The notes under the pieces are model-generated. The model was not told the DNA's origin, ran no database searches, and saw only the letters and a program-made list of their open reading frames with translations. Shown here piece by piece: positions 2,272-37,160 of a stretch of DNA of 64,000 nucleotides. Position numbers and translations under genes: made by a program. The DNA is from Isoetes taiwanensis. Its lineage: Eukaryota > Streptophyta > Lycopodiopsida > Isoetales > Isoetaceae. Location of the stretch: positions 2,722,738-2,786,737 of the forward strand of contig JAJEKV010000109.1 in the NCBI GenBank assembly GCA_021234155.1. The letters are read 5' to 3'. How positions within the stretch are numbered: the stretch's first letter is position 1; each line of letters opens with the position of its first letter.

Positions 2272-2272
2272 G

Positions 2273-9868: not shown

Positions 9869-10019
9869 GCGAGGGTTGCCAAGAAAGACAGCCTTGAAAA
9901 AATAACCATTGCTAGCCTTTTTAACTTGGCCTACATTTTGACACATCGCATGTAATGACACTATAGTAAGTCATATGGATAAGTGTGGCATGGTGATATA
10001 GTTGTGCATGCAATATTAG

Positions 10020-11425
10020 CTTAAAAAAAAACCTCACACCAGTTCCAAAAACTATACTTCCTTAAAAAACATCCATTTAGAAACTACACTTACTTATAAA
10101 CCACGCCTCAAAAAATTGTATACTTTCCTAAAAAAATAGCTACTTAAAAACTACATCTGCTTATTATTCACATCTCAAAAAAACCATACTTCTTTAATCA
10201 AAAACAGTTACTAGAAACTACACATAGTTATAAATTACAACTCAAAAAAAACTATACTTACTTAAGAAATAGCTACTTGAAAACTATGTCTAGTCGTAAA
10301 CCACACCACTTTAGAAAACCATACTTCCTTAAAATATAGCCACTTAGAAACTACATCTACTTATAAACTACACTTCAAAAAACCATACTTCCCTAAAAAA
10401 ACAGCTACTTAAAAACTACATCTAATTATATAAACCACACCTCCAAAAAACCATACTTCCTTAAAAATAGCTTCTTAAAAACTACACCTAGTTATAAACT
10501 ACACCACTTCAGAAAACCATACTTCATTAAAAACTACATCTAATTATATAAACCACACCTCCAAAAAACCATACTTCCTTAAAAATAGCTTCTTAAAAAC
10601 TACAACTAGTTATAAACTACACCACTTCAGAAAACCATACTTCATTAGAAAACAACCACTTAAGAACTACATCCACTTATAAACCACAGCTCAAAAACCC
10701 ATACTTCTTTCCAAAACAGCTGCTTAAAAACTACATTTACTTATAAACCACACCTCAAAAAACAACACCTAGACTTAAAAAATCATACCACTTCAGAAAA
10801 CTATACTTCCTTAGAAAACAACTACTTAAAAACTACACCTACTTATAAACGACACCTTAAAAAACCATATTTCCTTAAAAAATAGCCACTTAAAAACCAC
10901 ACCTCCAAAAAACCACACTTCCTTAAAAATAGCTTCTTAAAAACTACACCTAGTTATAAACTACACCACTTCAGAAAACCATACTTCATTAGAAAACAAC
11001 CACTTAAGAACTACACCCACTTATAAACCACACCTCAAAAACCCATACTTCTTTCCAAAACAGCTGCTTAAAAACAAACCACACCTCAAAAAACAACACC
11101 TAGACTTAAAAAATCATACCACTTCAGAAAACTATACTTTCTTAGAAAACAGCTACTTAAAAACTACACCTACTTATAAACGACACCTTAAAAAACTATA
11201 TTTCCTTAAAAAATAGCTACTTAAAAACAACACCTTATTATAAACCACACCTCAGAAAACAACATCCTCTTAAAAATAACTCATCTTTAAAAAAAAAACT
11301 ACACTTCTGCAAAATGAAACCACACCTAAAAAAAAACCACACCTTCAAAAAAAAAAAACTATAGCTCCTTAAAAAAAACCTACATCGTCTTCCTAATAAA
11401 CCACACCTCCACATAACCACATGTA
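10020..11425. repeat. Degenerate ~66-bp tandem array
   Basis: About twenty imperfect units whose core reads ACTACACCTACTTATAAACC, then CACCTC plus an A-run, CCATACTTCCTTAAAA and TAGCTACTTAAA. Some blocks of two units are duplicated as higher-order repeats (compare about 10410-10520 with 10530-10640, and 10570-10700 with 10900-11050). No coding sequence is supported on either strand; the - strand frames are Phe/Leu-rich artefacts of the A-runs. Confidence 0.85.
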
Positions 11426-11612
11426 GAGTTTTTTGAACAACAACATGTGGTTTTCTTTTACTGTTGTTTTTAAGTGTGGACCCAGAATTGGGGTGGTAGT
11501 GTGAAGCGGCGAATTAGAACGGTTGTTGAAGACCATCTGATAAGATTTGGTACATTTGAAACAACCCACCAGATCTGATGCTCGTCATGGATATCAGGTT
11601 GGTATACAATGA
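11426..11612. other. Spacer before the 7.64-kb repeat array
   Basis: Non-coding bridge from the 66-bp array to the T-run that opens the first large unit. Nothing recognised. Confidence 0.4.
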
Positions 11613-12561
11613 TTTTTTTTTTTTTTGTAATTAATTAAAATCCTATGACTATGTGAGATGATAAAGAAGTATGGTGGATCATACTTAGGAATTCCCCATG
11701 GAGAATAAAACAGAGTGTGCCTCAAAAGAAAATAGGGGAACGACGTGTAATATACAAGAAAACAAGGTATGTAAAATGCTCCTGGACCGTGTACGTGCAT
11801 AGTTGTATTCAGATCTTTATCTCAAGGCGTATATGGCAGTTAATGCTCCATGAGTGTATTATTAAAGCACTTGTAAGCTTGGTGGTACTTTTGAAGCCTT
11901 GTATAATCTGGCGTATCTAAAGGTAAAGTAATAATATGGCCACAGATGAAAATTAAGAGAAAAACCAAGGTAACTTTCATATCCATGTAAATCATATATT
12001 AGATGGCGGGGTTTTTTTTTTTTTTTCCTCCTAAGGTATCCATTTCAGGACTAATAAGCTCAAATTTGGCATATCATGTAGAATGGTCCCTATGGGTTAA
12101 ACATCTACCAGTATTTTGAAACAATAAAGATATTTAAAATTTTTAGCCAAAGTCTACCCATGGTGCTTTGAGAGGTCTAAGGTTGTTTATCTCGAAATAG
12201 TATTGAGGCTAATAGCCGAAAACCTAATCGAATCAAACTCAAATTTTACACTATTCGATGGCGATGGTCGGGCGATGTCGGCGACTAAACGCATGGTAAC
12301 AGCCGAATCTGCGGTGTGTACCTCGGTTTCAAGCATGAGAGATAAAGCAACCGCGGACAAGGTAAGTGAATCCTCCATGCTAGATTTGTTCTAAGAATTT
12401 TAGTTCAAAACCTACTGCATAAAGCAAACATGTAAGGGAATAGGTCTCCGCTTTGAGAAAGCTCGCACGGTTTATGGCGAGAAAAAGTCCCATTATGGCG
12501 AGAAAAAATCCCATTGAATAGTTGCGCTTAAATCCTTAGATATCCATGTCTTTCTCGAAAT

Positions 12562-13398
12562 ATGGAATGGGAATATGATTCAGCCAGACCCTTAGTTCGG
12601 ACTACGAATGTGAAGCATTGAATGATAAAGGGTTAGAGGAAGAATTCAAAGCCCCAGTATTTCCTTATCCGAATGTTCCGAGGGGCCTACGAGAATGGGA
12701 GATATGCAAAGAAATGTTGCAAACTCAAAGAGGGAAGCAAATGCTTCAGAGGAGGATATACCAACAAGAAGAGCAATTTTGGAGAAAAAAATATGCACAC
12801 TAGCAAGTCTTTGGGAACTTGGATATTGATGATTTGTAGTATTCTCAAACACGGTACCGCAACAAGATTATGCATCCGACTGGGGCCTAATTTCGTGTGC
12901 TTCTTTGTTCAAAATAAATGTGGACGTCAAAAGAATTAAGATCTAAATTAATGGGCTTATAATGCTTAGTACAAAGAGTTACGTAAACGGGAAATGACTT
13001 GTAAGTTAGTACTTCAACCAAAATATCAAAGTTACTTGAAATTAGTTATATATTCGTGTTCTAGTTATTTCTCTAACTGGGCAAGAGGATACAAGGGTTG
13101 ATCGGCTATAAACCGAGAGGCTCACTGTACCTTTTGGCCCTTCGTGCATTACCAATATTTTGCTAATGTCATGATGTTTGGCTGCGGTACTAGACCTCTC
13201 CCGCCCTTGTCTTTTCTTTGCTTGAAGTTTCGAATTTGCTAGGATCCGGAATTGGAAATGGCTCCTCCTTTTTGGGATAACACTAATGTTGGAGATATAC
13301 GCAAGCAATACCAAAGACAAACAGGGTTTGCTATCATTCTATTTTCGTATATAAAGACAAGGTTGTATTACATATTTGAAGTTTCGGATAAACAATAG
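12562..13398 (+). pseudogene. Small intron-containing ORF, copy 1 (broken as read)
   Basis: Counterpart of the spliced ORF at 27835-28669. The reading frame is broken here at many points, and nearly all breaks fall where copy 3 has CAG or CTG (for example GACTCTGAATG in copy 3 against GACTACGAATG here). I suspect sequencing error more than true decay. The donor CAG|GTAACT of copy 3 is also altered here. Confidence 0.5.
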
Positions 13399-14360
13399 AC
13401 AAAGTATTCACTTGATTTAGAAGTGTTAAGCGAGGCTTCCATTTATTGCTTTCGAAAAGTGAAAAAATCTGTCCTATATCTATGTTTAATACAAGAATGG
13501 AAGTTTGATTAAGGTTTAAGTGTGTAAGTCGTCTTTACTTTAAAGAACAAGTTTATTGTTATGGGAAGTTGCAACATGAAATGAAAAGGGTCCTTGACAT
13601 GCAAGACTGCTTTGAAGGTTTTTGCATCCTTCTGTTTCCAAATCGACTTTTCGTCATAATCGCCTTTCATGAGTTGAGAAAAATAGTTTTGTTACAGAGT
13701 GAGCATGGTCCAACCATTGAGAGAAGAATCGTGAAGTTCTGCGGAAACTTATAGCGGCAGCTTTTGTGAACCCCGCTAATCGCCGAGGAACATTTGGACA
13801 AACTCAATCAACCGAGAGATGAAAATACGTTTGGGGACCTGCAGACATTGTTAGACCCTAACACAAGTTTTTTCCGATTCCATTAAAAGCTAAGGCAGGC
13901 TGTAAAAAGTTCTTTAGAGTCTAATAAACATGCCGGGCCGCTTAATAATGATAATACCGGAAGTGTTAAAGGGGTTTCCTTTTCTCGAAATATCTTAAAG
14001 AAAATGGACATGCAGATAATTAAAGCCAAAGTGGCATAAATACTAAGACATGCGAGTTTTTCGCATTTCATTGCTATGATTAAGTGAGATTCTGCCATAT
14101 ATCTATGAATATTACAGTAATGGAAGTTTGGTTAAGATTTAAGTGTGTAAACTATCTTTATTTTAAAGAACAATTTCGTGGTTATGGGAAAACCAATGGA
14201 AATGAGGTAAGGCATGGTGTAAAAAGTTTTTCAAGTGTCTAATAAACATCGGGCTACATAATGAAGATAGTAATGGAAATGTTAAAACAGGCTTCCTTTT
14301 CGAAATATCTTAAAGAAATATAATTCCGTGAGGATATAACTATAATGGGCGCTAAAGTGA

Positions 14361-14500
14361 AGGAAATAGAACGGATGTAATCTGTAACTAAGTTGAAAAT
14401 TGACATGCAAATAATTAAAGTCGAAGTGGCAGGAAATAGAACGGGTGTAATCTGTAACTAAGTTGAAAATTGACATGCAAATAATTAAAGTCGAAGTGGC
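14361..14500 (+). repeat. 70-bp tandem duplication in PLE unit
   Basis: AGGAAATAGAACGG starts at 14361 and again at 14431 with a 70-bp period. Also present in copy 2 at 21985/22055; single in copy 3 (about 29617). It groups copies 1 and 2 as closer relatives. Confidence 0.9.
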
Positions 14501-15219
14501 ATAATTTTCAAGACATGCGTGGTCCGTTATAAGGTAAAACCAGAAAGTTAGAGTCAAAATATGAAGTACAGAGTTGACATGCAAGACAGATGATATTATG
14601 TGCATGCAAAAATACAAACGTGAACCTTTAAATGTTAAAACATGGGGATTTTGAGAAAAATGTTAAACATGAGGATTTGAGGATTTGAGGATGCAAGGCA
14701 TGTGTGGTTGCATGCATGCATGCATGACACATTGCCTCTTCTAAAATGTTCTTCCTAAGGCTATAAGGTTGGGCTAAATGTTTACATGTATGCAACCAAG
14801 GCTTAGAATAAGGGCTTTAGACTTTTGGAGTTTATACCTCAAACCTTTAAAATTTAATCTTGCTTGCTTATATTGACTATGGGCGTCTTTGGTAGCTATG
14901 GTCTATTAGGACTTGAGTTTACAAAGTTGCAGTATAAACTGGGGATCCAGAGGCTAAAGGATAATGAGTACCGGTTTCATACGTGTATACGTATCCGGAT
15001 TGATAATACAGTCGTTGGGATTGACCAAGACTGATGTTCGACCTAGAGATCTAGGTTTGACTGGGTTTTTTTTAGACACTTCGATTCCTTGGTTTAACCA
15101 GGGTTGCTTGTGTCCTTTAGCCTCTTCCCTGTTTTCCTTAGAAAATTAGATAAGTGGTTTCAGATATGGTACTCATGGTTTCAGATATGGTACTCACAAG
15201 TCATCTTACTCTATTCCAG

Positions 15220-15753
15220 GTTGAAAACAGATACTTAGAGGACGTGGACTTCGAAGTGGTCCCTCCTACATGGAATAAGGAGCTGTCTGCTTTGGGATAT
15301 GCAGCCAGTAAAATGGAGTGCCCAAATAATGTTGTGCAGACTATACTGAGCTGCATTAAAAATGGTGATATTCACGAGCTGATACATGAGAAGGAGGCCC
15401 TTAGAATGCCAGGGGATTACTCTGCTGTATCACATATGGGTTGCAGTGAGTGGATCAAAGCATTTCCTTACCTAAACAAGGCTATGGAGGAGGACATTAG
15501 CCGAGTGGTAAATGCATTATATGAAAATCTGCCAGAAAAAATATACCAGTGGACCATGGAGGAAGATAAATGCAAGGCTCAGTTTATGACTGGTGTTGCT
15601 GCTCTTAAGGTTGCAAACAACATAATAGAAGATGGTATGGAGAAAAACAATATGCAGTATGCACAAGAAAATAAAGAGGATGATCCTTTTGGAGCTGCCC
15701 TTCTCTCGGACGAAGATAAAGAGGCAATTAAGGCTAAAGCCATGGCACTGTAA
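15220..15753 (+). CDS. Unrecognised ORF upstream of RT, copy 1 (exon)
   Basis: Open from a good 3' splice site (CTCTATTCCAG|GTTG, exon at 15220) to TAA 15751-15753, giving about 177 residues; the same frame is open upstream to 15154. The product is mainly acidic and helical-looking, with a hydrophobic middle (SEWIKAFPYLNKAMEEDISR) and an acidic tail (DDPFGAALLSDEDKEAIKAK). I do not recognise a family. The same frame reopens directly after the TAA (from about 15754 to 15981), so either a stop separates two products or an intron or readthrough joins them. It lies 1.3 kb upstream of the RT exon in the same orientation and recurs, frameshifted, in copy 2. It may be an accessory (ORF1-type) protein of the element. 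Confidence 0.6.
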   Translation, partial: VENRYLEDVDFEVVPPTWNKELSALGYAASKMECPNNVVQTILSCIKNGDIHELIHEKEALRMPGDYSAVSHMGCSEWIKAFPYLNKAMEEDISRVVNALYENLPEKIYQWTMEEDKCKAQFMTGVAALKVANNIIEDGMEKNNMQYAQENKEDDPFGAALLSDEDKEAIKAKAMAL

Positions 15754-15780
15754 CCTGGTCAGGAAGATTTCCAGTTTACC

Positions 15781-15981
15781 TTGAACAATTGTCTTATGTT
15801 CCCCATTATTCCAGAAAGACTTGTGGAATGCCAAAGTGTGCTATGCAATCAGGGCATATGGCGCACAAAGAATTTTGGTGCGTTGGCCCCCATTAGCAAA
15901 GAAGTATGGATTACACTCGGTGACATCACACCAGCCCAGCTTATAGCCACAAAAAATGCAGCAGAAAAAATGGAAAATTAG
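15781..15981 (+). CDS. Unrecognised short ORF, copy 1
   Basis: In frame with 15220-15753 after its TAA. It encodes a Cys-containing stretch (LVECQSVLCNQGIW) and ends at TAG 15979-15981. It overlaps the next frame (open from 15924) in an A-rich region containing A AAA AAT around 15950, which could suit a -1 frameshift or simply mark an intron. Function unknown. Confidence 0.4.
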   Translation: MNNCLMFPIIPERLVECQSVLCNQGIWRTKNFGALAPISKEVWITLGDITPAQLIATKNAAEKMEN

Positions 15982-16310
15982 TCAAGAAAGATAAGATCAA
16001 GATTATGATCGATTGCCATTTTTTCGACAAAACTTGCAGCAAGGAACCTTTCATGTATCTCAGTCAAAAGAGCCATATGGCATATCCTGCAGAAACACGA
16101 GATGCATTCTATCTTAAAAAGATATGGAGGACCATGTGCCCCTACTTGAAATGTGGATGTGAAACGCCTAGGGGAAATAATAAGGCCAGCAGAGTTAAAG
16201 ACAATGTCTGCAGGGAAAATATGACCTGGTTGGATCATGCTATCTGGTATATGTTCAATAACCTCGATTCCATCTTTCCTAACATGTCCTGTGCTGTTAC
16301 TCTTTCATAA
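15924..16310 (+). CDS. Cysteine-rich ORF upstream of RT, copy 1
   Basis: Open frame of about 128 codons ending at TAA 16308-16310. Cysteines and histidines cluster in CHFFDKTCSK, MCPYLKCGCETP and DNVCRENMTWLDH, suggesting a zinc-binding module. In the Naiad/Chlamys branch of Penelope-like elements a zinc-binding region precedes the RT, so this could be the equivalent position, but I cannot align it to a known motif and see no GIY-YIG signature. Conserved without change in copy 2 at 23549-23935. Confidence 0.5.
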   Translation, partial: HHTSPAYSHKKCSRKNGKLVKKDKIKIMIDCHFFDKTCSKEPFMYLSQKSHMAYPAETRDAFYLKKIWRTMCPYLKCGCETPRGNNKASRVKDNVCRENMTWLDHAIWYMFNNLDSIFPNMSCAVTLS

Positions 16311-16312
16311 AT

Positions 16313-16645
16313 ATGCTCAAGACAACTTTCAAGAAAGGCATTATGGCGTACCTCTCGTATTTAGAAATAAGGAGTTCACTGTTGGGTATGACGGCACTGC
16401 TGGCAACAGACCCATGGGCTGATTTTATGATTACAATGCCAAGAAACAAGATGAATGACATCTGCGAGAAGACCATTAAGCACGCGTCATTTATGACAAA
16501 TCCAAGGGCAGCGAACAATAGGCGCAGCAGATTCACAAAAAGATCTAGTACCAGCATTGGAAGCAGTTCCCAAAGCAAAATGACACAGCCACCGCGCATT
16601 ACAATTGCACCAAGCTCAAGTATTAGCAAGTGTACTGAAAGTTGA
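16313..16645 (+). CDS. Ser/Arg-rich short ORF upstream of RT, copy 1
   Basis: 110-codon frame with a basic, Ser/Thr-rich C-terminus (NPRAANNRRSRFTKRSSTS), as in a nucleic-acid-binding linker. A second frame over its first part (16237-16422) also looks protein-like (QERHYGVPLVFRNKEF). The two may be exons or frames of one protein, separated by an uncertain stretch at 16380-16422 where copies 1 and 2 disagree at CTG sites. Low certainty. Confidence 0.35.
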   Translation: MLKTTFKKGIMAYLSYLEIRSSLLGMTALLATDPWADFMITMPRNKMNDICEKTIKHASFMTNPRAANNRRSRFTKRSSTSIGSSSQSKMTQPPRITIAPSSSISKCTES

Positions 16646-17032
16646 ACTGTGGAATGCCTAAACACGCCAGATCCAGCTGGGCATTCAGTTACAAAAGGAG
16701 AGCCAAGTAAAGTCCTAAAAGATGTTGGTGGTGGACAAACACTCAGCTATAATGTCTAAGAGGTAGATAACCTATCATATTCTCCAATTTTTCAATTTCT
16801 CTATTTTTTAGTCCATTTGGAAATGATACATAGATGTGTAGATTATAAAGGTGTATCCTTAAAATAACAGGCCAGTTATCTGGTCCAAGAGAAAGAGGGC
16901 ATGAACCTCGTTTGCCATTTGGCCACAAAATACCAAAACGCCATTTATATGGCCCCAATTCCATGACGATGCTCACTGGGACACCAGTGGAAGTAGTCAG
17001 TATAATTAGAATGGTTTGTTTGTGTATTACAG

Positions 17033-19039
17033 ATCCAAAAATGTATTAGGAAGGACTGTGCACATTTGAGCAGCTTAGGAAAGAAAGACAAAAAGAAAAT
17101 TATCCATGGGTCCTTCTTATCTAAAATCTTAGATAAAATATGTCTGCCCAAGATCATAAGCGCAGCCATGATTACAGTACTTGGAGAAGGTGGCAAAAAA
17201 ATTATGGATGATACCATGTTTAGCTGGAAGTATACTGAAAGTCTTCGAGACATATGCTACAAGCCTTACCCAATTTTTGCAACAGACCGAGAGATTAGCT
17301 GCCCATGTAGAAATCCGACCCTCAGCAAATATCTTGACAATAGGATAGGACATATTTGCACCACAGATGTAAATCTGATACATAATCCGACCTTGAGAGG
17401 CTTGTTTAAAAGGGGGTTAAATCATATTCCCAACAAAATGCTGGATTTGGATACCCTAAAAGAGGAAATTAACTACATGTGTGATACCCTGTTTGAAATG
17501 CACAAGTACACTTATATAATACATGAAAATGATAGATTGATCATCAAGAACAGAGTCTCGGCTAGGGCTGTAGCAGAATTCAAAGAGGTCTGCAAGAAAG
17601 ACTGCACAAGAAAGTTTGCATTCAATGATGTATCAGTCATCAGAAATATGGAATGGCTATGCCAAAAATTCTATATCTCAGGAGTGGACAAAGCCTCCAA
17701 TAACCCGGCATTTATTTGCCCTAAATTTATTAGAGATCTGGCTATTAAAAGATTAAGCAGCAAAGACTTCAAGCGCATTGAAGAGGAACCTGAGCAAATC
17801 AAGAATAAGGTCAAGAAGCAAATACAAAACCTTATTGGCGACATTGACTTTGAATTTGACAGCCTTCCATATCTTTTAGGCCTATTTAAAGCACATAAAA
17901 AAGATTTCAGATGGATAACCAATGCGCACAGTACCATCTATACAGAAATTTCTCATATTATTACAGCTGTCCTTAACAATATCCTGGAAATATGGCCAAA
18001 TGTATCCAAAAAAGTATGTGCAAGAATATGTACTTTGATGCCAGGAAAGGCCATTCCCTGCTGGGTTATAGGTTTAATCTATGATATCGTGTTAAACCTA
18101 CCTTCCAAGATTGACCAAGTGTTCGTAGCCGATATTACAAAGTGCTACGAAAACATACCACTAAAAGGTGGGAATGGAATCTGCCAGGTTATGAAGCAAG
18201 TAAGCAGTGCTGCTTGGGAATATATGAAAGGGGTCAATCAGCACCATGAACTCTGGATAAAAAAAGACAATGGGAACAATTATTCAGCCAAATGGTTTAA
18301 ATATAGTCCGCAAGGAAAGTGTTGGAGCAAAATGGATCTAAACCATTTTTCGCTGCTAGGAGACTGGCTTCTAACCAACTTTTTTATTGTCATGGGAAGT
18401 GTGGCATGGCAGCAAGTGTGTGGCATCCCTATGGGATTCTCCTGTAGCCCATGTTGGTGTAATTTGTACCTTGCCTGGTTTGAAGTATCGTTCATAAAAA
18501 ACCTCGCAAAACAAGGAAGGTACAATGATATTGAAAGGTTTAGGTACACATTTCGGTATATGGATGACCTACTGGCTGTCAATTGCCCAGTTATCAAAGA
18601 GTTTCTCAGCAGCATACAAGAACCTGAAAAGAATGCCTTACGAATTTATGATATGCAAACCTTAGGTATCAAGGAAGAGACCATACTCAAATATGAGGAA
18701 GACCCAACTAGATGCTTTGGATATAAGGCCAATTTTCTAAACTTGACCATTGAAGTTCTCAATAGGGATATGGGACTGTATAGGACTTACAAGTATGACA
18801 AAAGAGACAAACTGCCCTTCAAGGCAATTAAGTATGTACATGCTGATAGTTGTCGCCCATACTATCAAGCTAGGAACGTGATCATCTCTCAAATTATGCC
18901 ATACTTGTACATAAATTCATGCCCTATTATGGCTGCAAAGGATATTATAGGCATCATCAACAAATTTGTTGCAAATGGTTTTGACAGTTTTGGACTAAAA
19001 AAGAAGAGTCTGATGTACATGCGAAGTAATGATTTCTAG
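17033..19039 (+). CDS. Penelope-like reverse transcriptase, copy 1 (intact)
   Basis: Open from a 3' splice site (TTTGTGTATTACAG|ATC, 17033) to TAG 19037-19039, about 668 residues. In order (numbering from 17066): CPCRNP (79-84); GHICTTDVNLIHNPTLRGLF (95-114), the block that in relatives reads GHxxTxDLxIIxN..LRxLL; VDKASNNPAFICPK (207-220), an RT1-type block; KAHKKDFRWITNAHS (275-289); motif A VADITKCYENIPL (354-366); motif B CGIPMGFSCSPCWCNLYLAW (452-471); catalytic YMDD (498-501); YKYDKRDKLPF (575-585). This set matches Naiad/Chlamys-type Penelope-like elements (known relatives have IPMGTNCAPLLADLF and FRYIDD). It would copy element RNA at a chromosomal 3' end. The catalytic Asp residues are present and the frame is unbroken. 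No GIY-YIG domain is fused at either end. Confidence 0.88.
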   Translation: MQKCIRKDCAHLSSLGKKDKKKIIHGSFLSKILDKICLPKIISAAMITVLGEGGKKIMDDTMFSWKYTESLRDICYKPYPIFATDREISCPCRNPTLSKYLDNRIGHICTTDVNLIHNPTLRGLFKRGLNHIPNKMLDLDTLKEEINYMCDTLFEMHKYTYIIHENDRLIIKNRVSARAVAEFKEVCKKDCTRKFAFNDVSVIRNMEWLCQKFYISGVDKASNNPAFICPKFIRDLAIKRLSSKDFKRIEEEPEQIKNKVKKQIQNLIGDIDFEFDSLPYLLGLFKAHKKDFRWITNAHSTIYTEISHIITAVLNNILEIWPNVSKKVCARICTLMPGKAIPCWVIGLIYDIVLNLPSKIDQVFVADITKCYENIPLKGGNGICQVMKQVSSAAWEYMKGVNQHHELWIKKDNGNNYSAKWFKYSPQGKCWSKMDLNHFSLLGDWLLTNFFIVMGSVAWQQVCGIPMGFSCSPCWCNLYLAWFEVSFIKNLAKQGRYNDIERFRYTFRYMDDLLAVNCPVIKEFLSSIQEPEKNALRIYDMQTLGIKEETILKYEEDPTRCFGYKANFLNLTIEVLNRDMGLYRTYKYDKRDKLPFKAIKYVHADSCRPYYQARNVIISQIMPYLYINSCPIMAAKDIIGIINKFVANGFDSFGLKKKSLMYMRSNDF

Positions 19040-19160
19040 GGACTCAAATATGATATTCAAGTTCTTATTCAAATAATCAGCAATCAATACTGAATTGGTA
19101 CGTGTTAATTTTCTGTTTATATCGGGTTTATTTACTTTGGTATGGATATTTACAATAGGT

Positions 19161-19198
19161 GTGGGTCTGACCTCTGCTGAACAGTAGGGGTCAACCCA
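19161..19198 (+). other. 3' terminal stem-loop of PLE unit, copy 1
   Basis: GTGGGTCTGACCTCTGCTG pairs with CAGTAGGGGTCAACCCAC across a two-base loop, with one bulge and one or two mismatches. It sits 59 bases before the unit end, about 120 bases after the RT stop. A plausible RNA recognition structure for the element RT. I found no hammerhead core (CTGATGA...GAAA) around it. Confidence 0.7.
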
Positions 19199-20197
19199 CC
19201 CCTATGATACAGCTTTCATAATAACCTAGTCAACCCTGTCCTACGGAAGGAGGTAGATTTTTTTTGTAATTAATTAAAATCCTATGACTATGTGAGATGA
19301 TAAAGAAGTATGGTGGATCATACTTAGGAATTCCCCATGGAGAGAATAAAGCAGAGTGTGCCTCAAAAGAAAATAGGGGAACGACGTGTAATATACAAGA
19401 AAACAAGGTATGTAAAATGCTCCTGGACCGTGTACGTGCATAGTTGTATTCAGATCTTTATCTCAAGGCGTATATGGCAGTTAACGCTCCATGAGTGTAT
19501 TATTAAAGCACTTGTAAGCTTGGTGGTACTTTTGAAGCCTTGTATAATCCGGGCGTATCTAAAGGTAAAGTAATAATATGGCCACGAGATGAAAATTAAG
19601 AGAAAAACCAAGGTAACTTTCATATCCATGTAAATCATATATTAGATGGGTTTTTTTTTTTTTTTTTTTTTCCTCCTAAGGTATCCATTTCGGGACTAAT
19701 AAGCTCAAATTTGGCATATCATGTAGAATGGTCCCTATGGGTTAAACATCTACTGTATTTTGAAACAATAAAGATACTTAAAATTTTTAGCCAAAGTCTA
19801 CCCATGGTGCTTTGAGAGGTCTAAGGTTGTTTATCTCGAAATAGTATTGAGGCTAATAGCCGAAAACCTAATCGACCGAAACTCGCTTTACACTATTCGA
19901 TGGCGATGGTCGGCGATGTCCGGCAGCTAAACGCATGGTAACAGGCCGAATCTGCGGTGTGTACCTCGGTTTCAAGCATGAGAGATAAAGCAACTGCCGG
20001 ACAAGGTAAGTGAATCCTCCATGCTAGATTTGTTCTAAGAATTTTAGTTCAAAACCTCTGCATTAAACAAACATGTAAGGGAATAGGTCTCCTTTGAGAA
20101 AGCTCGCGCACGGTTTATGGCGAAAAAGTCCCATTATGGCGAAAAAATCCCATTGAATAGTTGCGGTTAAATCCTTAGATATCCATGTCTTTGAAAT

Positions 20198-21034
20198 ATG
20201 GAATGGGAATATGATTGCACGGCGGACCCTTTAGTTCGACTCGAATGTGAAGCATTGAATGATAAAGGGTTAGAGGAAGAATTCAAAGCCCTGTATTTCC
20301 TTATCGAATGTTCCGAGGGCCTCTGAGAATGGGAGATATGCAAAGAAATCTTTGCAAACTCAAAGAGGGAAGCAAATGCTTCGAGGAGGAGGATATACCA
20401 ACAAGAAGAGCAATTTTGGAGCAAAAATATGCACACTAGCAATCTTTGGGAACTTGGATATTGATGATCAGTAGTATTTCGAAAACACGTTTGCAACAAG
20501 ATTATGCATCCGACCGGATCCAATTTCAGGTAGCTTCTTTGTTCAAAATAAATGTGGACGTGCAAACAATTAAGATCTAAATTAATGGGCTTATAATGCT
20601 TAGTACAAAGAGTTACGTAACTGGGAAATGACTTGTAAGTTAGTACTTCAACCAAAATATCAAAGTTACTTGAAATTAGTTATATATTCAGGTTCTAGTT
20701 ATTTCTCTAATCGGGCAAGAGGATACAAGGGTTGATCGGCTATAAACCGAGAGGCTCCATTTGTACCTTTTGGCCCTTCGTGCATTACCAATATTTTGCT
20801 AATGTCATGATGTTTGGCTGCAGGTACTAGACCTCTCCTCGCCCTTGTCTTTTCTTTGCTTGAAGTTTCTGAATTTGCTAGGATCCGGAATTGGAAATGG
20901 CTCCTCCTTTTTGGGATAACACTAATGTTGAGATACTTACGCAAGCAATACCAAAGACAACAGGGTTTGCTATCATTCTATTTTCGTATAAAGACAGGTT
21001 GTATTACATATTTGAAGTTTCGGATAAACAATAG
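20198..21034 (+). pseudogene. Small intron-containing ORF, copy 2 (broken as read)
   Basis: Counterpart of 27835-28669. The frame is disrupted at sites that are CAG/CTG in copy 3. The exon-2 landmark (ATGGCTCCTCCTTTTTGGGA) is present near 20897. Confidence 0.5.
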
Positions 21035-22842
21035 ACAAAGTATTCACTTGATTTAGAAGTGTTAAGCGAGAGGCTTCCATTTATTGCTCCGAAAAGTGAA
21101 AAATCTGTCCTATATCTATGTTTAATACAAGAATGGAAGTTTGATTAAGGTTTAAGTGTGTAAGTTTGTCTTTACTTTAAAGAACAAGTTTATTGTTATG
21201 GGAAGTTGCAACATGAAATGAAAAGGGTCCTTGACATGCAAGACTGTTTGAAGGTTTTGCATCCTTCTCGTTTCCGGTCGACTTTTCGTCATAACGCCTT
21301 TCATGAGTTGAGAAAAATAGTTTTGTTACAGAGTGAGCATGGTCCAACCATTGAGAGAAGAATAACGAAGTTCTGCGGAAACTTATAGCAGACTTTTGTG
21401 AACCCCGCTAATCTTTGAGGAACATTTGGACAAACTCAATCAACTGAGAGATGAAAATACGTTTGGGGACCTGCAGACATTGTTAGACCCTAACACAAGT
21501 TTTTCTGATTCCATTAAAAGCTAAGGCAGGCTGTAAAAAGTTCTTTAGAGTCTAATAAACATGCTGGCCGCTTAATAATGATAATACGGAAGTGTTAAAG
21601 CAGGTTTCCTTTCTGAAATATCTTAAAGAAAATGGACATGCAGATAATTAAAGCCAAAGTGGCATAAATACTAAGACATGCAGAGTTTTCTGTTTACTGC
21701 TATGATTAAGTGAGATTCTGCCATATATCTATGAATATTACAGTAATGGAAGTTTGGTTAAGATTTAAGTGTGTAAACTATCTTTATTTTAAAGAACAAT
21801 TTCGTGGTTATGGGAAAACCAATGGAAATGAGGTAAGGCATGGTGTAAAAAGTTTTTCAGTGTCTAATAAACATGCTGGCTACATAATGAAGATAGTACG
21901 GAAATGTTAAAACAGGCTTCCTTTCTGAAATATCTTAAAGAAATATAATTCCGTAGGATATAACTATAATGGGCGCTAAAGTGAAGGAAATAGAACGGAT
22001 GTAATCTGTAACTAAGTTGAAAATTGACATGCAAATAATTAAAGTCGAAGTGGCAGGAAATAGAACGGGTGTAATCTGTAACTAAGTTGAAAATTGACAT
22101 GCAAATAATTAAAGTCGAAGTGGCATAATTTTCAAGACATGCAGGGTCTGTTATAAGGTAAACCAGAAAGTTAGAGTCAAAATATGAAGTACAGAGTTGA
22201 CATGCAAGACAGATGATATTATGTGCATGCAAAAATACAAACGTGAACCTTTAAATGTTAAAACATGGGGATTTTGAGAAAAATGTTAAACATGAGGATT
22301 TGAGGATTTGAGGATGCAAGGCATGTGTGGTTGCATGCATGCATGCATGACACATTGCCTCTTCTAAAATGTTCTTCCTAAGGCTATAAGGTTGGGCTAA
22401 ATGTTTACATGTATGCAACCAAGGCTTAGAATAAGGGCTTTAGACTTTTGGAGTTTATACCTCAAACCTTTAAAATTTAATCTTGCTTGCTTATATTGAC
22501 TATGGGCGTCTTTGGTAGCTATGGTCTATTAGGACTTGAGTTTACAAAGTTGCAGTATAAACTGGGGATCCAGAGGCTAAAGGATAATGAGTACCGGTTT
22601 CATACGTGTATACGTATCCGGATTGATAATACAGTCGTTGGGATTGACCAAGACTGATGTTCGACCTAGAGATCTAGGTTTGACTGGGTTTTTTTTAGAC
22701 ACTTCGATTCCTTGGTTTAACCAGGGTTGCTTGTGTCCTTTAGCCTCTTCCCTGTTTTCCTTAGAAAATTAGATAAGTGGTTTGGATATGGTACTCATGG
22801 TTTCGAGATATGGTACTCACAAGTCATCTTACTCTATTCCGG

Positions 22843-23378
22843 GTTGAAAACAGATACTTAGAGGACGTGGACTTGAAGTGGTCCCTCCTACATGGAATAA
22901 GGAGTCAGCTGCGCTTTGGGATATGCAGCCCAAGAAAATGGAGTGCCCAAATAATGTTGTGCGAGACTATCGAAATGCATTAAAAATGGTGATATTCACG
23001 AAGCTGATACATGAGAAGGAGGCCCTTAGAATGCCAGGGGATTACTCTGCTGTATCACATATGGGTTGCAGTGAGTGGATCAAAGCATTTCCTTACCTAA
23101 ACAAGGCTATGGAGGAGGACATTAGCCGAGTGGTAAATGCATTATATGAAAATCTGCCAGAAAAAATATACCAGTGGACCATGGAGGAAGATAAATGCAA
23201 GGCTCAGTTTATGACTGGTGTTGCTGCTCTTAAGGTTGCAAACAACATAATAGAAGATGGTATGGAGAAAAACAATATGCAGTATGCACAAGAAAATAAA
23301 GAGGATGATCCTTTTGGAGCTGCCCTTCTCTCGGACGAAGATAAAGAGGCAATTAAGGCTAAAGCCATGGCACTGTAA
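22843..23378 (+). pseudogene. Unrecognised ORF upstream of RT, copy 2 (frameshifted)
   Basis: Same protein as 15220-15753. The first ~45 codons are out of frame because of small indels at 22887-22985 (copy 1 GGAGCTGTCTGCTTTG against GGAGTCAGCTGCGCTTTG here). The acceptor CCAG|G reads CCGG|G here. From about 22990 to TAA 23378 it is identical to copy 1. The differences are at CTG/CAG, so the break may be artefactual. Confidence 0.6.
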
Positions 23379-23548
23379 CCTGGTCAGGAAGATTTCCAGT
23401 TTACCTTGAACAATTGTCTTATGTTCCCCATTATTCCAGAAAGACTTGTGGAATGCCAAAGTGTGCTATGCAATCAGGGCATATGGCGACAAAAGAATTT
23501 TGGTGCGTTGGCCCCCATTAGCAAAGAAGTATGGATTACACTCGGTGA

Positions 23549-23935
23549 CATCACACCAGCCCAGCTTATAGCCACAAAAAATGCAGCAGAAAAAATGGAA
23601 AATTAGTCAAGAAAGATAAGATCAAGATTATGATCGATTGCCATTTTTTCGACAAAACTTGCAGCAAGGAACCTTTCATGTATCTCAGTCAAAAGAGCCA
23701 TATGGCATATCCTGCAGAAACACGAGATGCATTCTATCTTAAAAAGATATGGAGGACCATGTGCCCCTACTTGAAATGTGGATGTGAAACGCCTAGGGGA
23801 AATAATAAGGCCAGCAGAGTTAAAGACAATGTCTGCAGGGAAAATATGACCTGGTTGGATCATGCTATCTGGTATATGTTCAATAACCTCGATTCCATCT
23901 TTCCTAACATGTCCTGTGCTGTTACTCTTTCATAA
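23549..23935 (+). CDS. Cysteine-rich ORF upstream of RT, copy 2
   Basis: Identical in its coding part to 15924-16310; see that entry for the cysteine clusters. Ends at TAA 23933-23935, 730 bases before the RT exon acceptor. Confidence 0.5.
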   Translation, partial: HHTSPAYSHKKCSRKNGKLVKKDKIKIMIDCHFFDKTCSKEPFMYLSQKSHMAYPAETRDAFYLKKIWRTMCPYLKCGCETPRGNNKASRVKDNVCRENMTWLDHAIWYMFNNLDSIFPNMSCAVTLS

Positions 23936-24666
23936 ATATGCTCAAGACAACTTTCAAGAAAGGCATTATGGCGTACCTCTCGTATTTAGAAATAAGGAGT
24001 TCATTGTTGGGTATGGCAAGATCGGGCCGGGCAACGTAACCCATGGGCTGATTTTATGATTACAATGCCAAGAAACAAGATGAATGACATCTGCGAGAAG
24101 ACCATTAAGCACGCGTCATTTATGACAAATCCAAGGGCAGCGAACAATAGGCGCAGCAGATTCACAAAAAGATCTAGTACCAGCATTGGAAGCAGTTCCC
24201 AAAGCAAAATGACACAGCCACCGCGCATTACAATTGCACCAAGCTCAAGTATTAGCAAGTGTACTGAAAGTTGAACTGTGGAATGCCTAAACACGCCGAG
24301 ATCCAATTTGGGCATTCGGTTACAAAAGGAGAGCCAAGTAAAGTCCTAAAAGATGTTGGTGGTGGACAAACACTCGCGGCTATAATGTCTAAGAGGTAGA
24401 TAACCTATCATATTCTCCAATTTTTCAATTTCTCTATTTTTTTAGTCCATTTGGAAATGATACATAGATGTGTAGATTATAAAGGTGTATCCTTAAAATA
24501 ACAGGCCAGTTATCTGGTCCAAGAGAAAGAGGGCATGAACCTCGTTTGCCATTTGGCCACAAAATACCAAAACGCCATTTATATGGCCCCAATTCCATGA
24601 CGATGCTCACTGGGACACCAGTGGAAGTAGTCAGTATAATTAGAATGGTTTGTTTGTGTATTACAG

Positions 24667-26680
24667 ATCCAAAAATGTATTAGGAAGGACTGTGCACATT
24701 TGAGCAGCTTAGGAAAGAAAGACAAAAAGAAAATTATCCATGGGTCCTTCTTATCTAAAATCTTAGATAAAATATGTCTGCCCAAGATCATAAGCGCAGC
24801 CATGATTACAGTACTTGGAGAAGGTGGCAAAAAAATTATGGATGATACCATGTTTAGCTGGAAGTATACTGAAAGTCTTCGAGACATATGCTACAAGCCT
24901 TACCCAATTTTTGCAACAGTCCGAGAGATTAGCTGCCCATGTAGAAATCCGACCCTCAGCAAATATCTTGACAATAGGACAGGACATATTTGCACCACAG
25001 ATGTAAATCTGATACATAATCCGACCTTGAGAGGCTTGTTTAAAAGGGGGTTAAATCATATTCCCAACAAAATCTTTGGATTTGGATACCCTAAAAGAGG
25101 AAATTAACTACATGTGTGATACCTCGTTTGAAATGCACAAGTACACTTATATAATACATGAAAATGATAGATTGATCATCAAGAACGAGTCTCGGCTAGG
25201 GTCTGAAAGCGAGTAATTCAAAGAGGTGCGCAAGAAAGACCGCTGCACAAGAAAGTTTGCATTCAATGATGTATCAGTCATCAGGAATATGGAATGGCTA
25301 TGCCAAAAATTCTATATCTCAGGAGTGGACAAAGCCTCCAATAACCCGGCATTTATTTGCCCTAAATTTATTAGAGATCTGGCTATTAAAAGATTAAGCA
25401 GCAAAGACTTCAAGCGCATTGAAGAGGAACCTGAGCAAATCAAGAATAAGGTCAAGAAGCAAATACAAAACCTTATTGGCGACATTGACTTTGAATTTGA
25501 CAGCCTTCCATATCTTTTAGGCCTATTTAAAGCACATAAAAAAGATTTCAGATGGATAACCAATGCGCACAGTACCATCTATACAGAAATTTCTCATATT
25601 ATTACAGCTGTCCTTAACAATATCCTGGAAATATGGCCAAATGTATCCAAAAAAGTATGTGCAAGAATATGTACTTTGATGCCAGGAAAGGCCATTCCCT
25701 GCTGGGTTATAGGTTTAATCTATGATATCGTGTTAAACCTACCTTCCAAGATTGACCAAGTGTTCGTAGCCGATATTACAAAGTGCTACGAAAACATACC
25801 ACTAAAAGGTGGGAATGGAATCTGCCAGGTTATGAAGCAAGTAAGCAGTGCTGCTTGGGAATATATGAAAGGGGTCAATCAGCACCATGAACTCTGGATA
25901 AAAAAAGACAATGGGAACAATTATTCAGCCAAATGGTTTAAATATAGTCCGCAAGGAAAGTGTTGGAGCAAAATGGATCTAAACCATTTTTCGCTGCTAG
26001 GAGACTGGCTTCTAACCAACTTTTTTATTGTCATGGGAAGTGTGGCATGGCAGCAAGTGTGTGGCATCCCTATGGGATTCTCCTGTAGCCCATGTTGGTG
26101 TAATTTGTACCTTGCCTGGTTTGAAGTATCGTTCATAAAAAACCTCGCAAAACAAGGAAGGTACAATGATATTGAAAGGTTTAGGTACACATTTCGGTAT
26201 ATGGATGACCTACTGGCTGTCAATTGCCCAGTTATCAAAGAGTTTCTCAGCAGCATACAAGAACCTGAAAAGAATGCCTTACGAATTTATGATATGCAAA
26301 CCTTAGGTATCAAGGAAGAGACCATACTCAAATATGAGGAAGACCCAACTAGATGCTTTGGATATAAGGCCAATTTTCTAAACTTGACCATTGAAGTTCT
26401 CAATAGGGATATGGGACTGTATAGGACTTACAAGTATGACAAAAGAGACAAACTGCCCTTCAAGGCAATTAAGTATGTACATGCTGATAGTTGTCGCCCA
26501 TACTATCAAGCTAGGAACGTGATCATCTCTCAAATTATGCCATACTTGTACATAAATTCATGCCCTATTATGGCTGCAAAGGATATTATAGGCATCATCA
26601 ACAAATTTGTTGCAAATGGTTTTGACAGTTTTGGACTAAAAAAGAAGAGTCTGATGTACATGCGAAGTAATGATTTCTAG
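24667..26680 (+). pseudogene. Penelope-like reverse transcriptase, copy 2 (frameshifted as read)
   Basis: Same acceptor and exon start as copy 1. The frame breaks at about 25071-25245, where five small differences from copy 1 all lie on CTG/CAG: AATGCTGG to AATCTTTGG, ACCCTG to ACCTCG, AACAGAG to AACGAG, GGCTGTAGCAG to GGTCTGAAAGCGAG, and GACTGC to GACCGCTGC. From 25226 the frame is open for 484 residues and identical to copy 1, including motif B, YMDD and the C-terminus. I think the frame breaks are more likely base-calling errors than mutations. Confidence 0.8.
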
Positions 26681-26801
26681 GGACTCAAATATGATATTCA
26701 AGTTCTTATTCAAATAATCAGCAATCAATACTGAATTGGTACGTGTTAATTTTCTGTTTATATCGGGTTTATTTACTTTGGTATGGATATTTACAATAGG
26801 T

Positions 26802-26840
26802 GTGGGTCTGACCTCTGCTGAACAGTAGGGGTCAACCCAC
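26802..26840 (+). other. 3' terminal stem-loop of PLE unit, copy 2
   Basis: Same imperfect hairpin as 19161-19198, unchanged, 58 bases before the next unit begins. Confidence 0.7.
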
Positions 26841-27834
26841 CCCTATGATACAGCTTTCATAATAACCTAGTCAACCCTGTCCTACGGAAGGAGGTAGATT
26901 TTTTTTGTAATTAATTAAAATCCTATGACTATGTGAGATGATAAAGAAGTATGGTGGATCATACTTAGGAATTCCCCATGGAGAATAAAACAGAGTGTGC
27001 CTCAAAAGAAAATAGGGGAACGACGTGTAATATACAAGAAAACAAGGTATGTAAAATGCTCCTGGACCGTGTACGTGCATAGTTGTATTCAGATCTTTAT
27101 CTCAAGGCGTATATGGCAGTTAACGCTCCATGAGTGTATTATTAAAGCACTTGTAAGCTTGGTGGTACTTTTGAAGCCTTGTATAATCTGGCGTATCTAA
27201 AGGTAAAGTAATAATATGGCCACAGATGAAAATTAAGAGAAAAACCAAGGTAACTTTCATATCCATGTAAATCATATATTAGATGGCGGGGTTTTTTTTT
27301 TTTCCTCCTAAGGTATCCATTTCAGGACTAATAAGCTCAAATTTGGCATATCATGTAGAATGGTCCCTATGGGTTAAACATCGGCTGTATTTTGAAACAA
27401 TAAAGATACTTAAAATTTTTAGCCAAAGTCTACCCATGGTGCTTTGAGAGGTCTAAGGTTGTTTATCTCGAAATAGTATTGAGGCTAATAGCCGAAAACC
27501 TAACTGACCGAAACTCAGCTTACACTATTCGATGGCGATGGCTGGCGATGTCTGGCAGCTAAACGCATGGTAACAGGCCGGAATCTGCAGTGTGTACCTC
27601 GGTTTCAAGCATGAGAGATAAAGCAACTGCCAGACAAGGTAAGTGAATCCTCCATGCTAGATTTGTTCTAAGAATTTTAGTTCAAAACCTACAGACAGCA
27701 AACATGTAAGGGAATAGGTCTCCCGCTTTGAGAAAGCTCTGCACGGTTTATGGCAGAAAAAGTCCCATTATGGCAGAAAAAATCCCATTGAATAGTTGCA
27801 GTTAAATCCTTAGATATCCATGTCTTTCTGAAAT

Positions 27835-28669
27835 ATGGAATGGGAATATGATTCAGACGGCAGACCCCTTAGTTCCGACTCTGAATGTGAAGCATTGAAT
27901 GATAAAGGGTTAGAGGAAGAATTCAAAGCCTGTATTTCCTTATCTGAATGTTCTGAGGGCGCCTACAGAATGGGAGATATGCAAAGAAATGCTGCAAACT
28001 CAAAGAGGGAAGCAAATGCTTCCAGAGGAGGATATACCAACAAGAAGAGCAATTTTGGAGCAAAAAATATGCACACTAGCAGTGCTGGGAACTTGGATAT
28101 TGATGACTGTAGTATTCCTGAAACACAGCTGCAACAAGATTATGCATCTGACCAGGACGAATTTCAGGTAACTGCTGTTCAAAATAAATGTGGACGTGCA
28201 GCAATTAAGATCTAAATTAATGGGCTTATAATGCTTAGTACAAAGAGTTACAGAAATCTGGGAAATGACTTGTAAGTTAGTACTTCAACCAAAATATCAA
28301 AGTTACTTGAAATTCGTTATATATTCAGGTTCTAGTTATTTCTCTAACTGGGCAAGAGGATACAAGGGTTGATCGGCTATAAACCGAGAGGCTCCGCTGT
28401 ACCTTTTGGCCCTTCGTGCATTACCAATATTTTGCTAATGTCATGATGTTTGGCTGCAGGTACTAGACCTCTCCTGCCCTTGTCTTTTCTTTGCTTGAAG
28501 TTTCTGAATTTGCTAGGATCTGGAATTGGAAATGGCTCCTCCTTTTTGGGATAACACTAATGTTGGAGATACTTCTGCAAGCAATACCAGCACAACAGGG
28601 TTTGCTATCATTCTATTTTCGTATAAAGACAGGTTGTATTACATATTTGAAGTTTCGGATAAACAATAG
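27835..28669 (+). CDS. Two-exon small ORF of PLE 5' region, copy 3
   Basis: Exon 1 runs from ATG 27835 to CAG at 28165-28167, donor CAG|GTAACT. The next fitting acceptor, TTGCTAG at 28510-28516, resumes in frame with DLELEMAPPFWDNTN and continues to TAG 28667-28669. The product is about 161 residues: acidic N-terminus (MEWEYDSDGRPLSSDSECEA), a basic Gly/Asn middle, and a C-terminal stretch TGFAIILFSYKDRLYYIFEV that looks folded. I do not recognise it. The exact fit of frame across a 349-bp GT-AG intron is good evidence of a real gene. Penelope-like elements are known to retain introns. An upstream exon cannot be excluded: AAG|GTAAGT at about 27641 is a strong donor. Confidence 0.6.
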
Positions 28670-28778
28670 ACAAAGTATTCACTTGATTTAGAAGTGTTAA
28701 GCAGAGGCTTCCATTTACTGCTCTGAAAAGTGAAAAATCTGTCCTATATCTATGTTTAATACAGTAATGGAAGTTTGA

Positions 28779-29156
28779 TTAAGGTTTAAGTGTGTAAGCT
28801 GTCTTTACTTTAAAGAACAAGTTTATTGTTATGGGAAGTTGCAACATGAAATGAAAAGGGTCCTTGACATGCAAGACTGTTTGAAGGTTTTTGCATCCTT
28901 CTGTTTCCAGTCGACTTTTCGTCATACTGCCTTTCATGAGTTGAGAAAAATAGTTTTGTTACAGAGTGAGCATGGTCCAACCATTGAGAGAAGAATACGT
29001 AGTTCTGTGAAACTTATAGCAGCAGCTTTTGTGAACCCTGCTAATGCTGAGGAACATTTGGACAAACTCAATCAACTGAGAGATGAAAATACGTTTGGGG
29101 ACCTGCAGACATTGTTAGACCCTAACACAAGTTTTTCTGATTCCATTAAAAGCTAA
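28779..29156 (+). CDS. Unrecognised ORF/exon of PLE 5' region, copy 3
   Basis: Open from 28779 to TAA 29154-29156 (first ATG codon inside it near 28851). It codes for a basic then Leu-rich segment (RKIVLLQSEHGPTIERRI, AEEHLDKLNQLRDENTFGDL) likely to be alpha-helical or coiled. The start of the frame, LRFKCVSCLYFKEQ, is repeated in divergent form in the next ORF (LRFKCVNYIYFKEQ), so the two lie in an internal duplication. A TGA at 28776 closes the frame at the place where the second copy has TGG. Confidence 0.45.
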   Translation, partial: LRFKCVSCLYFKEQVYCYGKLQHEMKRVLDMQDCLKVFASFCFQSTFRHTAFHELRKIVLLQSEHGPTIERRIRSSVKLIAAAFVNPANAEEHLDKLNQLRDENTFGDLQTLLDPNTSFSDSIKS

Positions 29157-29341
29157 GGCAGGCTGTAAAAAGTTCTTTAGAGTCTAATAAACATGCTGGC
29201 CGCTTAATAATGATAATACGGAAGTGTTAAAGCAGGTTTCCTTTCTGAAATATCTTAAAGAAAATGGACATGCAGATAATTAAAGCCAAAGTGGCATAAA
29301 TACTAAGACATGCAGAGTTTTCTGTTTACTGCTATGATTAA

Positions 29342-29542
29342 GTGAGATTCTGTCATATATCTATGAATATTACAGTAATGGAAGTTTGGTTAAGATTTAA
29401 GTGTGTAAACTATATTTATTTTAAAGAACAATTTTGTGGTTATGGGAAAACCAATGGAAATGAGGTAAGGCATGGTGTAAAAAGTTTTTCAGTGTCTAAT
29501 AAACATGCTGGCTGCATAATGAAGATAGTACGGAAATGTTAA
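29342..29542 (+). CDS. Duplicate short ORF of PLE 5' region, copy 3
   Basis: 66 codons (EVWLRFKCVNYIYFKEQFCG ...). About 600 bases after its relative at 28740-28840. The downstream stretches 29157-29320 and 29466-29710 are also alike (both contain TTTCCTTTCTGAAATATCTT and ACATGCA(G/A)ATAATTAAAG), so the whole segment was duplicated. Coding status uncertain. Confidence 0.35.
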   Translation: MRFCHISMNITVMEVWLRFKCVNYIYFKEQFCGYGKTNGNEVRHGVKSFSVSNKHAGCIMKIVRKC

Positions 29543-30448
29543 AACAGGCTTCCTTTCTGAAATATCTTAAAGAAATATAATTCCGTAGGATATAACTATA
29601 ATGGGCGCTAAAGTGAAGGAAATAGAACGGATGTAATCTGTAACTAAGTTGAAAATTGACATGCAAATAATTAAAGTCAAAGTGGCATAATTTTCAAGAC
29701 ATGCAGGGTCTGTTATAAGGTAAACCAGAAAGTTAGAGTCAAAATATGAAGTACAGAGTTGACATACAATACAAGACATATGATATTATGTGCATGCAAA
29801 AATACAAACGTGAACCTTTAAATGTTAAAACATGGGGATTTTGAGAAAAATGTTAAACATGAGGATTTGAGGATTTGAGGATGCAAGGCATGTGTGGTTG
29901 CATGCATGCATGCATGACACGTTGCCTCTTCTAAAATGTTCTTCCTAAGGCTATAAGGTTGGGCTAAATGTTTACATGTATGCAACCAAGGCTTAGAATA
30001 AGGGCTTTAGACTTTTGGAGTTTATACCTCGAACCTTTAAAATTTAATCTTGCTTGCTTATATTGACTATGGGCGTCTTTGGTAGCTATGATCTATTAGG
30101 ACTTGAGTTTACAAAGTTGCAGTATAAACTGGGGATCCAGAGGCTAAAGGATAATGAGTACCGGTTTCATACGTGTATACGTATCCGGATTGATAATACA
30201 GTCGTTGGGATTGACCAAGACTGATGTTCGACCTAGAGATCTAGGTTTGACTGGGTTTTTTTTTTAAGAGTATCTCTCCCAGTTCAAGTATATATTCAAG
30301 ATGTTTATGATATCTAAATATGTAGGTAGATGATGCTGATGTCTCCTCCAAAATAGATGTGGATTTTGGTTTAATGTTGTCCATAGAGGCATATGAAACC
30401 GAAGCAGTAATCTGATTCATCAATAATGTGGATGGATGCCGCTCAACG

Positions 30449-37155: not shown

Positions 37156-37160
37156 ATTTC

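Follow-up and report, generated by a model that had tools for sequence, protein, structure and literature searches.

The genome of the quillwort Isoetes taiwanensis carries, in the 64,000-nucleotide stretch analysed here (the window; C918:2722738-2786737), a head-to-tail array that is one insertion of a large, abundant retroelement resembling the Penelope-like elements (PLEs). We consider it probable, at roughly three chances in four, that this is an autonomous Penelope-like retroelement with no recognised endonuclease, which inserts into T-runs, starts reverse transcription internally from an A-tract primer, and yields two proteins by splicing. An initial annotation of the window had described a tandem of 7.64-kb units, two full and one partial, as a large and complex PLE-type element with a readable reverse transcriptase (RT). 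Self-comparison bears out the tandem, and the RT profile, the spacing of RT motifs A and B', the arrangement of the repeats and an internal 3' end support the type. The element is not a lone intact copy: a search of the genome (1,658,258,908 bases in 1110 contigs) lists at least 67 RT matches (66 scored of 4,749 first-look candidates), 48 of the 67 without stops.

The array, its target and its ends

All parts of the array described below lie on the forward strand. The array spans 11619-30263 (18.6 kb) in the order A-B-A-B-A, with a period of about 7.64 kb; in the self-comparison, 19258-29687 matches 11619-22055 at 96.6% in 10,513 columns, with position 30263 as the end of the third copy. The A part is a pseudo-long terminal repeat (pLTR) of 3.36 kb with a 5' leader, a predicted exon 1 and a predicted intron 1 that contains a conserved folded RNA, and the B part holds the RT and a second open reading frame (ORF), ORF1. 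Unit 1 (11619-19257) and unit 2 (19258-26898, with frame-shifted ORFs) are full, and unit 3 (26899-30263) is partial, consisting of the terminal pLTR. The other two pLTR copies, running from the 5' start of the unit to an internal T8 tract, occupy 11619-15073 and 19258-22696. By MAFFT, units 1 and 2 differ in the RT half by 55 substitutions and 16 gaps (4,180 aligned bases) and in the upstream half by 124 substitutions and 48 gaps (3,413 bases); many of the small indels may be assembly noise.

Five other loci were picked among the RT matches and read over 9.9 kb each, three of them then being extended. Direct repeats flank the RT in all five; they are 95.8-99.3% alike within a locus and have a period of 6.75-7.66 kb, so that A-B-A is the layout of every copy seen at length. 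Likeness of these loci to the window varies by stretch from about 66 to 98%; between loci it is often just 66-85%, with C1059 closer, at up to 98%.

The left and right flanks of the array, joined across ten T's into a query of 190 bases, gave 40 scored places among 320 candidates, each matching positions 2-190 at 91-97%. The six places that were read are all uninterrupted, with T10, T12, T17, T11, T12 and T11 where the window has the 18.6-kb array. In the window, a T14 run (11613-11626) forms the 5' junction of array and target at that same point, and a T10 run (30256-30265) closes the 3' end, with target sequence after it. Since the joined flanks are contiguous in the empty sites, the array is a real insertion, placed in a T-run that another repeat already contained. 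Relative to the window, a few extra bases precede the T-run in four of these six empty sites and none in the other two, which means little or no loss of target sequence; a target-site duplication, if there is one, is indistinguishable from the T's. Many family members lie in the interior of contigs many Mb long.

The last copy in the window ends at an oligo-T tract which, inside the units, precedes AGACACTTCGATTCC. The corresponding internal T8 tracts, at 15066-15073 in unit 1 and 22689-22696 in unit 2, are the proposed start points of reverse transcription. A genome search with a 22-base pattern that closes with this tract gave 70 places (0 for the reversed control), of which 48 were read. 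At 25 of them the tract is internal, T7-9 in length, and the element continues in every case; at the remaining 23 it is terminal and unrelated DNA follows, with 19 distinct flanks, five sites sharing one. A single T-tract thus serves both the internal and the terminal sites, the latter being 3' ends of the kind described for PLEs. The T-runs at the distinct terminal flanks are 7-19 long (median 12), reaching T10 or more in 17 of the 19, and exceed the internal ones with a one-sided Mann-Whitney p of 1e-6, a value computed on related copies that are not independent. A copy on C963, outside the 22-base pattern, ends at the homologous tract within a run of 39 T's. At the other side, four arrays (window, C996, C1079 and C1059) begin at the unit's own T7-8, within a run of 13-21 T's.

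It is likely, from these shared ends, that the internal T-tract is the start site of reverse transcription, and its complementarity to the target suggests priming by an A-tract. Much the same layout has been reported for Poseidon of Anolis carolinensis (PMC11167929), in which tandem and partial-tandem copies form pLTRs, targets are AT-rich, and genomic 3' ends fall on internal start sites of reverse transcription near the junction of pLTR and ORF; that paper presents the tandem/pLTR layout and the internal 3' end as PLE traits. The anole start site is not homologous to the cut DNA, whereas in the quillwort the proposed start tract, U7-9, is the complement of the target's A-tract.

Proteins and predicted splicing

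The predicted exon 3 (17033-19039, its acceptor CAG ending at 17032) encodes the RT, with the motifs CxC, DKASNN, DITKCYENI (motif A), CGIPMGFSCSP and YMDD; the RT exon of unit 2 (24667-26680) is frame-shifted. The ORF of unit 1 (17006-19039, 677 aa) had been called open end to end. It has no internal stop, yet in the family alignment it is three residues short near its start and terminates about 18 codons earlier than usual. Across 24 aligned rows, C99-x-C101 is invariant (24/24), the KAxNN, motif A, IPMGF and Y(M/I)DD stretches are present, and a GH(I/V)(C/R)TT stretch appears in most. In six of seven RT pairs, some of which share members, dN/dS is 0.06-0.23, the seventh being saturated; by this measure the RT is under purifying selection in the pairs tested.

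When the RT profile was run against a set of 12 sources, its best non-self match was an exon of the host telomerase RT (TERT; L059, E 0.0074). By hhalign the RT gave 30.9 with TERT, 20.3 with eight Gypsy-like RTs and 22.3 with copia, in motif B' only. Motifs A and B' are 97 aa apart in 23 of the 24 rows (one row being unmeasurable), compared with 118 in TERT, 34 in all eight Gypsy-like RTs and 37 in copia, a comparison of spacing rather than of structure. Taken together, these results weakly support an affinity of the RT to telomerase. A scan of the RT alignment against viral contigs and prokaryote genomes found no relatives.

ORF1, about 510-535 aa long and with a conserved CPYxKCxCE stretch, has at least 84 matches listed in the genome (3,792 candidates). 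Pfam does not name it, and a PDB profile search gave unconvincing matches only. In the window it forms the predicted exon 2 (15220-16762), which is broken by frameshifts and has its own stop 3 nt before a GT donor. The predicted exon 1 is an acidic ORF (MEWEYDSDG...DQDEFQ) that is open in unit 3 (27835-28167), where a phase-0 GT donor follows, and it is present in the window, C996, C1079 and C1032. Its end reads CAG|GTA, in phase 0, in four loci, and ORF1, in the four loci for which its start is shown, begins directly after CAG, likewise in phase 0. No ATG lies close to the conserved start of the RT ORF, which a phase-0 acceptor AG precedes in all 20 rows shown of the 24 (CAG in 19, TAG in one). 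The frame is kept whether exon 1 is joined to ORF1 or to the RT, and we infer from these splice-like borders that exon 1 is spliced to one or the other. Introns inside pLTRs have been attributed to PLEs before (PMC11722881).

The several ORFs of unknown nature that the initial annotation had placed upstream of the RT thus resolve into exon 1, ORF1, the structured RNA and a captured host exon, of which the latter two are described next.

A folded RNA and a captured exon in the pLTR

Each unit has, in its predicted intron 1, a structured block of 136-140 bases (13083-13218, 20717-20856 and 28354-28491), which is predicted to fold into a three-way junction plus a short hairpin whose loop is often KAUAA. 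Folding z-scores of the sense strand in five loci lie between -4.2 and -7.6. For the copy in the window the antisense strand folds well too (-4.2), so the strand is assigned by position. In an alignment of seven rows from five loci, 11 of the 47 pairs change on both sides, a count unmatched in 500 shuffles, and the covariation score is above all 500; further pair types are ordinary (225 of 500). The model built from these loci matched seven others outside its training (L028, L031, L032, L038, L039, L045 and L049), as well as further copies in the training loci and one decayed copy (L054:479), with no match in 13 control loci. In a 19-row alignment, which is fitted to the model and contains one place twice (L027 and L054:9143 being the same), 95.0% of cells pair and 23 pairs change on both sides; its covariation score is 0.198, against 0.084 when shuffled and at most 0.048 when slid, and no measure was reached in 500 shuffles.

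In 11300-19300 and in L054:2200-2550, Rfam gave nothing beyond chance-level matches and no counterpart of the folded RNA. A hammerhead was considered and rejected: the core pattern is not conserved, being absent from 9001-33000 of the window and from C1079 and scattered in four other loci, and the UGA of the folded RNA almost directly precedes a stem. The first 35 bases of the block, its core, occur 176 times in the genome at up to 3 mismatches (reversed, 0). Among the 100 of these cores that are listed, 32 lie no more than 10.1 kb from another on the same strand, and none lies that close to one on the opposite strand. For 12 of the 14 best RT matches, a listed core is found on the same strand at a distance of up to 12 kb. 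Past the RT, the block is reached after 1.3 kb in L054 and after 1.7 kb in the window.

Arrays with periods of about 2.9 and 3.4 kb that contain the T-tract pattern or the RNA core are also found at C958:17813-26543, C94:171022-173897 and C1018:42024446-42031205. They have no listed RT nearby and are probably non-autonomous derivatives.

The third pLTR contains a captured exon of the host gene PDS5 (28838-29157), identical at 310 of 320 bp (96.9%) to the gene on contig C1091, with counterparts at about 13568-13894 in unit 1 and from about 21205 in unit 2. Its 5' edge coincides with the exon's 5' edge, and its 3' edge falls within about nine bases of the exon end; edges placed in this way hint that the piece was captured through spliced RNA. 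Local repeats within the pLTR (13402-14503 and 28701-29575) flank the exon, one copy of the pair having it and the other not, so that the exon-free state seems to have been kept alongside. Weak PDS5 matches also occur on either side of the RT in C1059, one of them just under the Pfam cut-off, and another is at C996:19405133.

Classification, alternatives and proposed mechanism

The PLE-type assignment rests on the layout, the internal 3' end and the intron-like structure, all of which are PLE-like, together with the weak affinity of the RT to telomerase. Tandem and partial-tandem copies forming pLTRs are found in the window, in the five other loci and among neighbouring RNA cores. Two features of canonical, endonuclease-bearing (EN+) PLEs, a GIY-YIG endonuclease in the ORF and a hammerhead ribozyme in the pLTR, were not recognised; Poseidon of the anole has both (PMC11167929), whereas the quillwort element has a different folded RNA. 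We conclude that this is a new PLE variant, whose list of parts is nearest to the endonuclease-deficient (EN-deficient) PLEs and whose RT motifs are nearest to those of the Naiad/Chlamys clade. The intron-containing Penelope families of Adineta vaga also have pLTRs and captured host sequences (PMC3846280); there the captured sequences lie between pLTRs, whereas the quillwort piece is a single exon inside the pLTR itself, and the quillwort pLTR is much larger.

Several observations weigh against the account preferred here. The TERT link is one of motif B' alone, with an hhalign probability of 5.4%; for the RT, Pfam returns only a weak RVT_1, below cut-off in the window, and a PDB profile search with the RT gave no match. 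The start tract has its exceptions, as two of the 19 distinct terminal flanks have T7 only, and the insert on C1079 ends about 43 nt before the tract end, followed by T17, the sole exception of its kind seen. Exon 1, though clear in four loci, has diverged in C963, and four of 17 rows (L026, L039, L042 and L045) give a doubtful fit, or none, to the pattern of an ORF1 stop followed by GT. In C1059 the folded RNA has decayed or is missing (L051, no match at E 0.01), and it is matched in just 8 of the 29 RT loci L022-L050, most of which end 1.5 kb past the RT. Finally, the TTTAGGG repeat is absent from the window and from 101 fetched loci, unlike the described EN-deficient PLEs.

Could the array have arisen by duplication of a single copy, either locally in tandem or in the assembly, and not by the element's own mobility? 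The assembly is Nanopore-based (Nanopore, Illumina and Bionano; PMC8566536), and there is indel noise between the units, both of which would suit such an origin. We think it very improbable, however, as five other loci have the same layout with repeats far more alike within a locus than loci often are to one another, the flanks are contiguous in empty sites, and terminal copies genome-wide stop at the same T-tract. Extra units could nonetheless have been added after insertion. Exon skipping faces a stronger competitor, and one that we regard as a serious minority view: the RT might be translated from a spliced ORF1-RT mRNA, by re-initiation or by readthrough at the ORF1 stop. In 13 of 17 rows and in the window, the donor follows that stop within a few nt, and the frames would be in register in L052 and the window. 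In relatives, however, offsets of all three frames occur (the stop-to-donor distance modulo 3, counted by hand, is 1, 2 and 0 in 8, 4 and 2 of 14 clear cases), so neither readthrough nor a single frameshift can join the ORFs family-wide. Phase 0 is, moreover, common to the exon 1 donor and the exon 2 acceptor, in four loci each, and to the exon 3 acceptor in 20 rows, as exon choice would have it.

The remaining alternatives would place the element in a known group. Members of the Naiad/Chlamys clade have an N-terminal GIY-YIG domain, a CxC motif before the RT, a long fingers insert between RT motifs A and B', and a bias towards simple-repeat or microsatellite targets; they are not known to carry a hammerhead. 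The quillwort element shares the CxC motif (CPC), the lack of a hammerhead and a simple-repeat target, and its wide A-B' spacing may reflect such an insert; it could be a true member whose own GIY-YIG escapes recognition, or one that relies on a sister element for this enzyme in trans; the genome has at least 121 GIY-YIG matches (150 of 263 candidates scored), many of them in repeated small ORFs. We hold this to be unlikely. The initial annotation had chosen the Naiad/Chlamys label, and of that label the RT motif stands, but not the endonuclease: Pfam finds no GIY-YIG in exon 1, ORF1 or the RT, and no listed GIY-YIG match comes closer than 20 kb to any of the 67 RT places listed, the nearest lying 38.6 kb from an RT place and 17.3 kb from a listed RNA core. 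The element also differs in its extra conserved ORF1 and its 3.4-kb pLTR. Pfam matches to DUF382, BNR, AcaB and similar families were judged to be chance. The genome's GIY-YIG repeats were themselves tried as a missing endonuclease exon and rejected, two such loci (4.8 kb) giving no significant RT or ORF1 match. Small GIY-YIG-coding ORFs at L060, L061 and 119 other places possibly represent a separate mobile family; in L060 and L061 the ORF is preceded by another, alike in both. No more probable is a telomeric, EN-deficient PLE of the Athena/Coprina type that has simply drifted to internal sites. Such elements resemble ours in having separate ORF1 and RT and no endonuclease, as stated in PMC6431247, and in a lycophyte host, EN-deficient PLEs being listed for Selaginella in PMC9033089 and PMC12477314; their Terminons also form head-to-tail arrays and capture host genes. 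The telomeric idea was set aside, however: beyond the lack of telomeric repeats in the window and the 101 loci, the quillwort element inserts into T-runs at internal sites, many of them deep within long contigs.

Returning to the preferred account of an element that is primed by the A-tract of its target, we propose the following series of steps. A nick or break in the T/A-run would leave an A-tract 3' end, which would pair with the internal U7-9 tract of the element's RNA and prime reverse transcription there, RNA downstream of the U-tract being left uncopied. The template would be a multi-unit transcript or a circular RNA, and copying would end at the unit's own 5' T7-8, joined to the other side of the T-run. 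The outcome would be a head-to-tail array ending in a partial unit. RT and ORF1 would probably be two proteins, with a single leader exon spliced to the exon of ORF1 in one case and to that of the RT in the other, and the folded RNA is probably a binding site for ORF1 or the RT, or a processing ribozyme. The nicking enzyme, the expression, the splicing and the RNA function in this scheme are our reading of genomic sequence. It is tempting to go further and see here a separate lycophyte lineage of telomerase-like retroelements with no endonuclease of their own, in which A-tracts prime on an internal U-tract, a new ORF1 and a new three-way-junction RNA (possibly a self-cleaving ribozyme in the hammerhead's place) form a ribonucleoprotein, and exon choice decides between ORF1 and RT; we regard this larger proposal as speculative and rather doubtful.

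The family bears on how PLEs are primed, on the origin of their tandems and on the mobility of PLEs that lack an endonuclease. With defined empty sites, an internal tract complementary to the target and dozens of readable copies, it offers a clean genomic readout, and the covarying RNA can be made and tested. It also marks a plant genome in which PLE-like elements that have intact ORFs are abundant. The word Penelope is absent from the main text of the Isoetes genome paper (PMC8566536), and a literature search, with subscription papers and repeat databases outside its scope, listed two papers, neither of which has a title on Penelope elements in Isoetes.

Other repeats surround the array. Just left of the insertion site, at 10047-11384, is an AC-rich, satellite-like tandem repeat with a period of about 64-67. 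Farther to the left, 1553-9869 is a Copia element with LTRs of about 720 bp (1553-2272 and 9147-9869) that are 97.7% alike; about 2.4 kb of other sequence, lying between 4905 and 7333, splits its coding region. Directly after the array, a pair of direct repeats of about 1.66 kb, 96.9% alike and 4.1 kb apart (31336-37149), resembles a non-coding LTR-type element, and 37091-37894 is a LINE-like fragment in which Pfam recognises a zf-RVT domain (E 1e-10).

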